A stretch of DNA of 64,000 bases, from assembly GCA_950295325.1 (NCBI GenBank), contig OX485805.1:29809501-29873500 (forward strand). Direction: 5' to 3'. This DNA comes from Polytrichum commune. Lineage: Eukaryota > Streptophyta > Polytrichopsida > Polytrichales > Polytrichaceae. Numbering within the stretch: position 1 is the first letter of the stretch; every line of letters begins with the position of its first letter. The notes below the pieces were generated by a model, which worked only from the letters and a program-made list of their open reading frames with translations, made no database searches and was not told the DNA's origin. Shown one piece after another: positions 17,276-51,332 of the stretch. The position numbers were made by a program, and so were the translations under genes.

Positions 17276-20200
17276 ATGAAAGCAAAAGCAATGAAGGTAG
17301 GTCCTATTCCCATTCTCGTCCTACTGCTCACCGTCTTCACCGTGCGATGTATCTTCTCCATCCCTGGAATTTTCGGCACCAAGCCTTCCCACAATCTAAC
17401 CTATGTCGGAGGGTACCCAATTGTAGTGGTTCGAAGACATCCAGATTCCCCGTCTCCTAGCCCGGACAACGAAACCTTAATTCATCCTCGCTTCAACGCC
17501 TCAGTTAATTCTTCAACTTCATCCATCCCTGCTCATCAACACAACGAATCGGTTGTGTCGGTGTACCCTACACCTGCAGCTGAGGCGGGAGTTCCAAGGA
17601 TCGATCCTGTGTGGAAACTGCTCGTGGGCACTTTGAGCAAGAAAGATGTGTCGAAGGACGCCAAAAATGCTTTGGATGGGGGGTTGCAGGCATGGGCAGA
17701 GGTGAGTAAAATGATGGCTAGCGAGGTCAAGGAACGGAGAAAGAATAATGGTGGTAAGAAATTAGCAGCTGCGGATACCAAGTGTCCTTACATGGTGAGC
17801 ACGGTGAATGCTACTGCGTTGAAATCCAAAGAGGAGAGAGAAGTGCCCATCCCATGTGGCTTAATTCTGGACTCTTCCATCACCATTGTGGGCACTCCCG
17901 TTGGCTCTACGGGGGAATTTGCCTTCGAGCTTGTAGGGTCGAAGCTTTTGGGCGAGGTGGAGGAGCCAATTGTGTTCCACTTCTCCGTAAGATTACGTGG
18001 AGATCGGAAGACCGACCGGCCAGTGATTGTGCACAACACGTGGAGCAGTGATGATGACTGGCATGAGGAGCAACGATGCCCCCGGCCACCGGATGTGAAT
18101 CCCCTTACGGCGAATCTAGGTCAGTATCGATTCTTTTATTCTAACAATATATCAATCTTTCTATATATCTATCTCCCTGCACTTCCTGACATCTCAGTAC
18201 TTCTTCCCATTCCATTTGTGTGCAACAAAAACTGCTGTTTCATGTGCAGTCAGGGAGGATAGGATGTTTGTAGTAATTTTATTATCACTAGTACCCCTGT
18301 CCCTTGATATAGAGAGTTTGCAGAAGGAGCAAAGTGAGGGAGGATAGGATGTTTGTTGTCATTTGTTAGCACTAGTAACCCCCTCCCACGCCAAATGGAA
18401 TTAGCAGTAGGAAACAAAGTGAGGAAGAATAGGATCTTTGTTTACGATTCCTTAGCAATAGGACCCCTCTCCCATGCCAAAAGGATTTAGCAGAAGGAAT
18501 CAAAGTCATAGAGGGTAGGATGTTTATTGTAATTTCACTAACACTAGTACCCCTGTCCAATGCCAGAAGGATTTAGCGGAAGGAAATAAAGTGATGGAGG
18601 ATAGGATAGGATGTTTGTTGTGATTCATTAGCACTAGTGCCCCTCTCCCATGCCAACAGGATTTAGCAAATGGAAGCAAATTCAGGGAGGGCAGGATGTT
18701 TGGTGTGATTCATTAGCACCAGTACTTCTGTCCCATGCTAAAAAGGTTTTGCAGGAGGGAGGATAGGCTGTTTGTTATATTTTTAAGCACTAGTACCCTC
18801 TCCCATCCAAAAAGATTTAGCAGATTGAAACAAAGTGAGGGAGGATAGGATGTTTGTGGTGATTCATAAGCGCTAGTACCCCTCTCGCGTGCTAAAAGGA
18901 TTTAGCAGAAGGAAGCAAAAGTGAGGAAGGATAGGATGTCTGTGGTGGTTTATTAGCGCTGGTCCCCCTCTCCCATCCTAAAAGGACTTAGCAGAAGGGA
19001 ACTAAGTCGAAAACAATTAACAGGAGACTAATAAGTAATTATCCACGTCATCACAGAAGTGAAGGATTCCCTGGACACATGGCTCAAGTGCAAACTTGTC
19101 ATGGTGATTGCACTACTGCAAAGGAGAAATCCTCTGGAAGAAGATTGCTCCCTTATATGTGTGCACACAACTGCCTGGTTTTATTTCTCAAGCATCTAAG
19201 TGTTTTGGTGACTAACCTACTTGGGAGTCATTTTTTGCATTTACAACAGGCAACTATCCAAGTTCACCTGGAAGTGAAACATCCTCCCAATGGTTCACAT
19301 AGTTAAATGAAGATATAACCATTGGGAGATTGCTTTTTTCTCTGTTTAAAAAATCATTTATTAAACTCTCACCTCACACTGGGGTTGATGGGTTGACAGT
19401 GGACGGTGTGGAGGTTTGCAATCCCCAAATTGGGCGAAACATAACCAGGAGGAGTGGTCCGGGGTCATGGAAGCAGCTGAATGGCGTTGAGAAGGAACTG
19501 GATGCCGTCTGGTTTCCATTTGCAGAGGGATATCCCTTTGTGGCAACTTTAGTTGCTGGGTGGGATGGTTTCCACATGTCCGTCAATGGAAAACACATCA
19601 CTGCATTCAAGTATCGCCAGGTAAATTGGTCATACATCTCAGAATGTGCTGGATCTTGTGGTAGGAGAGAGGCTTGTTTATCTAAACCCCTTGTGGCTTT
19701 TAGCTTCACTCACGTAAATTCCATGGAATTCTGGTAGAATTAATACTGGGTTTAAGCTCCCAAGTTTCCTGGGAACAGATTCACTTCTGTAGAATGCAAT
19801 TTGTTTTGGGTATCATATGTACTGAGTGTTTCTTCGAGATATAAGAGAGAAATTCGCCAGGATTTGGAAGTCAAGATGAAGAAAGGGGAATGTAGTGTGT
19901 AAGTTCTATTGAAGCTTGACTTGTTCTTGAATTCCTACGTGCAGAGCTTAGAGCCGTGGATGATTACGAGGATGCGCTTCAGTGGTGATTTGGAGCTGAA
20001 GGAAGTGTTGGTGAATGGACTTCCTATTTCAGATGATGCATCACTTATACCAGATCTGAAACTCCTCAAAGCACCTAAAGTAGCCAAAAATGTCACCCTT
20101 TTTGTTGGCGTGTTTTCAAGCAACAGCAACTTTGTTCGTCGAATGGCCTTGCGAAGGACCTGGATGCAGTACCCTTCTGTGCGAAATGGTAGCGTGGTGG

Positions 20201-50180: not shown

Positions 50181-51332
50181 ATGTTGCGGCTGGGATGCGT
50201 ATGTCTTTTAGTTTTTCTAGCTCAAATTGCGGTCCTTCGCCAGGAGCATCACATAAGCTCCTGTAGTGATGATGACCTTGCACAACTGGCAGTGCACCGC
50301 GACTACTTCTATGTCGGAGGTGAGTATGTGACCATGGCGTCAGGTGAGGGTTTGATGAAGAACCAAATGTATGTGGAGAAGTTGTCTGCAACGGGCTACG
50401 AATCGACGCAGCCATATCCTTTGGTGCTCATCCATGGGAAAGCAAATACTGGAGTAACTTGGCTGAATACCCCGGACGGACGACCAGGTTGGGCCTCATA
50501 TTTTCTCTGCCAAGGCTACGTCGTCTACATCATCGACCAGCCAACGCGGGGTAGATCCGCTTGGTTACCTGGCGACTTTGCAATGGACACCTTCTCTTTC
50601 GAATATATCCAGGCGAGAATTACAGCCACGGAAAAGTACAACCTCTGGCCTCAATCTACGAAGCACACTCAATGGCCCGGGACTGGAGAGAAAGGGGATC
50701 CGATTTTTGACGCTTTCTACGCATCCACTGTGCAGTTTCTCTCTAACGACACCGAGGCGCAAATCAAGACTCGCGACGCTGTTGTGGCGTTGTTGGATAA
50801 GATTGGAGCTGCAGTTTTGCTCACTCACTCTCAGGGGGGTTTATACGGGTGGCCGATTGCTGACAGTCGTCCTCACCTTGTCAAAGCGATCGTCGCAGTC
50901 GAACCTACCGGCCCGCCATTTCAAGAAGCAGTTTTCGGGAATAATCCGGCCCGGGCATGGGGCTTGACGGACATCGCAATGACGTACTCGCCCGCAGTGT
51001 CAAAACCACTAGAGCAGATCAAAACGGTGAAAGTGCCATCAATTGACAGCGATCTGTACTCAAGCTGTATAATGCAGGTTGAGCCTCATGTGCACGTTCT
51101 GCCGAACCTCAAGGACATTCCGATCTTGATTGTTGTCTCTGAGTCGTCTTTTCATGCTGTCTACGACCACTGCTCAGCCAAATTCTTGCTGCAAGCCGGA
51201 GTCAAGAATGTGGAGTTGCTCCGACTGGAAGACGTCGGCATCAGGGGCAACGGCCATGCGATGATGAAGGAGAACAACAACTTGAAGGTTGCAAGAGTGC
51301 TGCAAGAATGGGTGCAAAAGAACGTCGATTAA
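50181..51332 (+). CDS. Secreted alpha/beta hydrolase, esterase-713-like
   Basis: A single open frame of 383 aa with no visible intron. Residues 1-18 resemble a signal peptide (MLRLGCVCLLVFLAQIAV). After FYVGGEY (43-49) follows the alpha/beta-hydrolase fold: LVLIHGKANTG (81-91, HG oxyanion region), TWLNTPDGRPGWASYFL (93-109), YIIDQPTRGRS (116-126), the nucleophile elbow LLTHSQGG with Ser217 (THSQG instead of the usual GXSXG), AVEP with Glu241 as likely catalytic acid, and GNGHAMM with His359. This order and the NTPDGRPGW block match the bacterial/fungal esterase-713-like group as I remember it; members act on esters of small cyclic or lipophilic compounds, but the substrate cannot be read here. 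Neighbours are plant genes with introns, so a contaminating contig is unlikely. Transfer from a microbe is a reasonable inference. Confidence 0.9.
   Translation: MLRLGCVCLLVFLAQIAVLRQEHHISSCSDDDLAQLAVHRDYFYVGGEYVTMASGEGLMKNQMYVEKLSATGYESTQPYPLVLIHGKANTGVTWLNTPDGRPGWASYFLCQGYVVYIIDQPTRGRSAWLPGDFAMDTFSFEYIQARITATEKYNLWPQSTKHTQWPGTGEKGDPIFDAFYASTVQFLSNDTEAQIKTRDAVVALLDKIGAAVLLTHSQGGLYGWPIADSRPHLVKAIVAVEPTGPPFQEAVFGNNPARAWGLTDIAMTYSPAVSKPLEQIKTVKVPSIDSDLYSSCIMQVEPHVHVLPNLKDIPILIVVSESSFHAVYDHCSAKFLLQAGVKNVELLRLEDVGIRGNGHAMMKENNNLKVARVLQEWVQKNVD

Follow-up and report, generated by a model that had tools for sequence, protein, structure and literature searches.

The 64,000-nucleotide stretch of plant DNA analysed here (the window) contains a gene that is quite probably a nuclear plant gene acquired long ago from bacteria, most likely from a proteobacterium, and that would encode a serine carboxylesterase of the esterase-713/SulE type entering the secretory pathway. 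The gene is a single open coding sequence of 383 codons (50181–51332, + strand), recognized by its open frame, a Pfam Abhydrolase_6 match, similarity to PDB entry 1qlw and bacterial relatives of up to 56% identity.

An intact, single-copy gene among intron-bearing plant genes

The frame runs uninterrupted and without intron from ATG to TAA, and an in-frame stop lies upstream of the ATG with eight codons between the two. The window occupies 29.81–29.87 Mb of contig C3, placing the esterase gene at 29.86 Mb. The GC content is 0.51 in the frame and 0.41 in each 2-kb flank. By Pfam, two open frames on the opposite strand each carry part of a metallophosphatase domain, the nearer of them about 1.8 kb downstream of the esterase, and a galectin domain at 17–20 kb of the window is likewise split over separate open frames. 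These split domains indicate that genes of the window have introns (two genes checked). The intact single-exon frame and the intron-bearing neighbours reported in an earlier note on this DNA were thus both borne out, the latter for these two genes. The galectin domain falls on two open frames at 17276–19737 (+ strand) and is likely part of a plant galactosyltransferase gene.

We searched the whole assembly (407.8 Mb, 64 contigs) for further copies. The plant protein and its closest bacterial relative each gave one match as query, and no paralogue was found with either. The same assembly carries a full-length open rbcL frame on contig C8. All 26 PDB matches listed for it (E ≤ 1e-300) are large chains of Rubisco, which shows the host to be photosynthetic; judged by rbcL and by the gene families nearby, it is presumably a land plant and resembles a bryophyte. 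Partial rbcL matches on two large contigs (C3:14137891–14138196 and C2:70106055–70106189) may stem from plastid DNA that entered the nucleus.

The GC content at third codon positions (GC3) is 0.582 in the esterase frame. Four pieces of the window that bear exons span 0.426–0.621; of 12 close bacterial relatives, 11 span 0.684–0.856 and one, a Campylobacteraceae MAG, has 0.17. With this plant-like GC3 the gene looks long resident. Its contig, its neighbours with split domains and its GC3 together place it among host genes with a host-like composition. Bacterial contamination or misassembly is one alternative: passages of PMC11228847, which gives 273 transfer candidates in P. patens with strong contamination warnings, describe contaminants as commonly mimicking transfers and the heavy filtering needed for a moss assembly. 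We consider this explanation extremely improbable here, as the esterase sits deep in a long contig (at 29.86 Mb) with split-domain genes nearby, its GC3 matches window exons rather than bacterial relatives, its CpG observed/expected ratio is 0.91 versus 1.40 in the closest bacterial gene, and no bacterial sequence among the matches listed is closer than 57%.

The protein belongs to the esterase-713/SulE group

Among Pfam families only the general Abhydrolase_6 exceeds its cut-off (E = 7.4e-9), and two NCBIfam matches both fall far below theirs. A sequence search of the PDB was more specific, with esterase 713 (1qlw, E = 1.4e-27) as the top match followed by 4q34 (E = 1.1e-26), and with SulE chains at E = 6e-20 to 4.1e-18. 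An AlphaFold2 model built from a 43-row alignment has a mean pLDDT of 92.7 and a pTM of 0.90. Among the 50 PDB fold matches listed for it, the top 16 places go to 4Q34, SulE or esterase 713 (E = 2.2e-23 to 2.0e-21), and the E-value then falls from 2.0e-21 at the sixteenth match to 5.3e-10 at the next listed. The plant protein is therefore clearly an alpha/beta hydrolase of the esterase-713/SulE type, as the earlier note had assigned it. That note had also placed it apart from plant hydrolases, which holds for solved structures: the protein does not resemble solved plant hydrolases more than it does microbial ones, and among the 14 PDB sequence matches at E ≤ 1 a single chain, a Vigna epoxide hydrolase (E = 0.36), is identified as plant.

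Three solved proteins allow a closer comparison. Esterase 713 of Alcaligenes (1QLW, 2WKW), the best PDB sequence match, has the same fold and, according to passages of PMC10356948, a Ser/Glu/His triad without a GXSXG elbow, as in the plant protein. The two are 24–26% identical over the fold alignments and differ in that esterase 713 reads HGCCLTG where the plant protein has HGKANTG; esterase 713 is bacterial, whereas the gene described here lies in a plant genome. SulE, a sulfonylurea-herbicide esterase (PDB 8GOL and mutants), matches in fold (E = 5.5e-23) and sequence (E = 6.7e-20), and its TPDGRPG block and triad align with those of the plant protein at 22–25% identity over fold alignments. 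SulE also has the lid-loop residues Ile43 and Tyr45 and acts on herbicides; passages of PMC10356948 describe a dimer in which a lid loop extends over the partner's active site. BDI_1566 of Parabacteroides distasonis (4Q34), the best fold match (E = 2.2e-23), shares the THSQGG elbow at 25% identity.

Catalytic residues and conserved columns are retained

All motifs named in the earlier note were found where it had placed them. The NTPDGRPGW block, a family hallmark (residues 96–104; 50466–50492, + strand), is strongly conserved, with T97, D99, R101 and W104 invariant in the 43-row alignment (A3) and P98, G100 and G103 at 90% or more. We measured the conservation of single positions over 42 of 88 homologues, hand-picked for spread, and used the same set for the cysteine counts below. 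The proposed nucleophile Ser217 in THSQGG (codon 50829–50831, + strand) is Ser in 41 of the 42 relatives and matches SulE Ser209 by motif. The proposed triad acid Glu241 in AVEP (50901–50903, + strand) and triad base His359 in GNGHAMM (51255–51257, + strand) are conserved in all 42, and match SulE Glu232 and His333. In SulE, passages of PMC10356948 report, these three residues form the triad without a GXSXG motif, and Ala at any of them nearly abolishes activity. By alignment, the plant protein thus has the Ser-Glu-His triad residues, the non-GXSXG elbow and the TPDGR block.

Of the 92 columns conserved at 90% or more in the 42 relatives, the plant protein keeps 86 (0.935), within the range of the relatives themselves (0.827–1.0). 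With no stop in the frame and these columns kept, the protein looks maintained and not decaying. Alternatively, the frame could belong to an insert that is silent or decaying and have no function, a reading favoured by the absence of AATAAA, ATTAAA and AATGAA from the 568 bases downstream of the frame. The 383 codons have stayed free of stops despite a long branch, and the triad and conserved columns are kept, so that we regard this reading as very improbable.

Relatives in bacterial genomes

A search of 72,556 plasmid records gave a match in 85, with 43.8% identity for the best (Novosphingobium, E = 2e-78). A scan of bacterial genomes with the single protein found no relative; an alignment-based scan of bacterial and archaeal genomes then gave at least 596 stretches, at least 387 of which encode relatives, and the best 80 were used. 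The best bacterial-genome match among the candidate stretches listed has E = 2e-125. Among the matches listed, the highest identities are to a Betaproteobacteria MAG (L012, 56%), a Hyphomicrobiales MAG (L014, 55%) and a further Betaproteobacteria MAG (53%), and the five best-scoring rows are all MAGs. Records not labelled as MAGs include, again among the matches listed, Janthinobacterium sp. PC23-8 (L019, 52%) and Ralstonia sp. NFACC01 (L023, 47%). These proteobacterial homologues (L012, L014, L019, L023; 47–56% identity) share motifs with the plant protein and lie in bacterial genomes, and 31 of the 42 relatives have both an export-like N-terminus and the cysteine pair described below. The closest relatives among the matches listed from the prokaryotic collections are therefore proteobacterial and at most 56–57% identical, and with no match above 57% the donor genus cannot be named.

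Close relatives (E ≤ 1e-90) are sparse, with 8 of 399 genomes in one order and 2 of 385 in one class, starting genomes included. At this threshold no sequence closer than 57% was found in either the order or the class, and the best match was the starting genome each time. The phage collection gave three partial matches of 24.5–29% identity in faecal phage contigs.

We also analyzed the genes beside the bacterial homologues. Those in L015, L016, L019, L020 and L023 are of common bacterial families (GntR, TctA, MFS and others), and 2 of 10 scanned neighbours match no family. By Pfam, a GH3 glycosidase gene lies directly upstream of the homologue in Janthinobacterium (L019:339–2339) and in Ralstonia (L023:300–2432), and a functional link between the two genes is possible. 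In Novosphingobium a frame upstream of the homologue (L002:339–2408) resembles a GH3 glycosidase by eye. Together with the GH3 genes of L019 and L023, a monooxygenase and an acyl-CoA dehydrogenase in L003 and a P450, a dienelactone hydrolase and a lactonase-family protein in L009 give a weak hint of the breakdown of glycosides or aromatic esters. Other neighbours give no such hint: aminotransferases in L015 and L023, a thioredoxin-like protein in L016, a trypsin-like one in L017 and TctA in L020. The homologue in Polynucleobacter rarus (L018:2471–2749) has an in-frame stop about 92 codons in and appears broken in that record.

The plant protein nests within a bacterial clade

We built a tree of 91 rows comprising the plant protein (query), 87 bacterial relatives and three distant outgroup rows, one of them a plasmid homologue from P. 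distasonis (L092). The P. rarus homologue with the in-frame stop was excluded from all trees. Three rows with frames longer than 700 amino acids (L055, L057, L078) were trimmed to the tblastn match, with any internal stop written as X. The query falls inside a clade of 27 rows (100/99) and a clade of 22 rows (100/98), whose other members are all bacterial. In the 27-row clade, 22 of the 26 bacterial rows are titled Pseudomonadota, two Acidobacteriota, one Actinomycetota and one Campylobacterota. A tree built without the outgroup rows again places the query in clades of 27 and 22 rows with equal support, and in it 21 bacterial rows form a clade apart from the query (98/83).

Topology tests bear on this nesting in two ways. 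Without outgroups, a clade of the 26 relatives excluding the query is rejected (p-AU = 0.009; the group was named post hoc, after the tree). With the outgroups, a clade uniting all 87 bacterial relatives without the query could not be rejected (p-AU = 0.148). We regard this second test as weak, since more than two changes per column make for a very long outgroup branch, but its result stands. At about 1.0 change per column the query branch is long too, and the tree program flags long rows as uncertainly placed.

The trees represent the bacterial part of the search and phylogeny that the earlier note had proposed, and in that part the query nests among bacteria. The microbial affinity claimed in the note is supported, with nearest relatives that are mostly proteobacterial. 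Its proposal of horizontal transfer had left two candidate donors, bacteria and fungi; a microbial origin is likely, and a bacterial one is favoured by the collections searched, which were prokaryotic; fungal or further plant homologues could shift the donor or the date.

An old gene, vertically inherited in plants or across eukaryotes, would fit the p-AU of 0.148 for a query outside all bacterial relatives, and plant relatives could lie outside the collections searched, in which the plant's own genome is the single plant genome. Vertical inheritance sits poorly with the nesting of the query within a bacterial clade and with an intron-free frame in a window where two genes have introns, and no plant-identified PDB chain resembles the protein beyond the epoxide hydrolase match. 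We think it very improbable.

A different route would lead through fungi, either by a fungus with a bacterial-type copy passing the gene on or by fungi and the plant each taking it from bacteria. Fungi, we presume, carry esterase-713-like genes, and the long query branch allows for an unsampled intermediate. Transfers from fungi to bryophytes have been published, as passages of PMC12890914 (terpene synthases) and PMC11228847 (KP4) describe. Nesting in a bacterial clade, at 56–57% identity at most among the matches listed, needs no such intermediate, and we hold a fungal route to be possible but unlikely.

A hydrophobic N-terminus and a cysteine pair fit a secreted enzyme

Residues 1–20 (50181–50240, + strand) form a hydrophobic stretch that is a probable signal peptide, with a 15-residue Kyte-Doolittle mean of up to 2.65 and a predicted helix at residues 6–18, where the model has low confidence (pLDDT 55–60). 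The stretch fits a signal peptide or an anchor, and the signal peptide of the earlier note agrees with it to this extent.

Cys296 (codon 51066–51068, + strand) and Cys331 (51171–51173, + strand) are proposed disulfide partners. Cys is found at position 296 in 35 of the 42 relatives, position 331 is conserved likewise, and both cysteines occur together in 33. The pair is present in all 31 relatives with a hydrophobic N-terminus versus 2 of the 11 without one (Fisher p = 1.2e-7, a value inflated by the kinship of the rows and by start codons of the bacterial relatives picked by rule). A disulfide that accompanies export in bacteria and persists in the plant would suit a secreted enzyme, and on these sequence features the plant enzyme is probably secreted. 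The N-terminus, the cysteine pair and the intact frame lend indirect support to the earlier note's proposal that the plant adopted the protein as an apoplastic enzyme.

Proposed history, function and significance

A bacterial gene in a plant chromosome is a well-precedented event, with known examples from early land plants. Passages of PMC12890914 name fungal-type terpene synthases, GH88 and fungal fruit-body lectins as microbe-to-plant transfers. The esterase gene would represent the same kind of event, the adoption of a single microbial gene, in a protein family other than those named there. In the main texts of PMC12890914, PMC12448838 and PMC11228847 the word 'esterase' is absent; that of PMC11131428 has it once, in passages naming pectin esterases. 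A full-text literature search for esterase 713 led to papers on SulE and on bacteria and to no report from plants; the gene or an orthologue may already stand in a supplementary list of transfer candidates.

In the history that we favour, a proteobacterial gene would have moved into the plant nucleus long enough ago for its GC3 to turn plant-like, and its product would now enter the secretory pathway. By homology with its solved relatives, Ser217, which His359 would activate and Glu241 orient, would attack the carbonyl of a small carboxylic ester; an acyl-enzyme would form, from which water would then free the acid. The Cys296–Cys331 disulfide would probably form in the oxidising ER or apoplast, as it may in the periplasm of bacteria. 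We infer the export, the disulfide, the esterase activity and the substrates, which would be small esters, aryl or alkyl, that come from microbes or neighbours. The more specific idea of an exported first-contact enzyme, derived from a proteobacterial SulE-type esterase and cleaving esters of microbes or neighbouring plants, is in our view rather unlikely, and roles in detoxification or at the cuticle are guesses.

The gene adds one more enzyme family, a well-defined bacterial esterase group, to the microbial genes in plant chromosomes. As SulE, its solved cousin, detoxifies sulfonylurea herbicides, the plant relative is easy to assay, and a substrate, if found, could show how the plant handles esters outside its cells. 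If the first-contact reading is true, the plant would naturally possess and export a relative of an enzyme that detoxifies herbicides.
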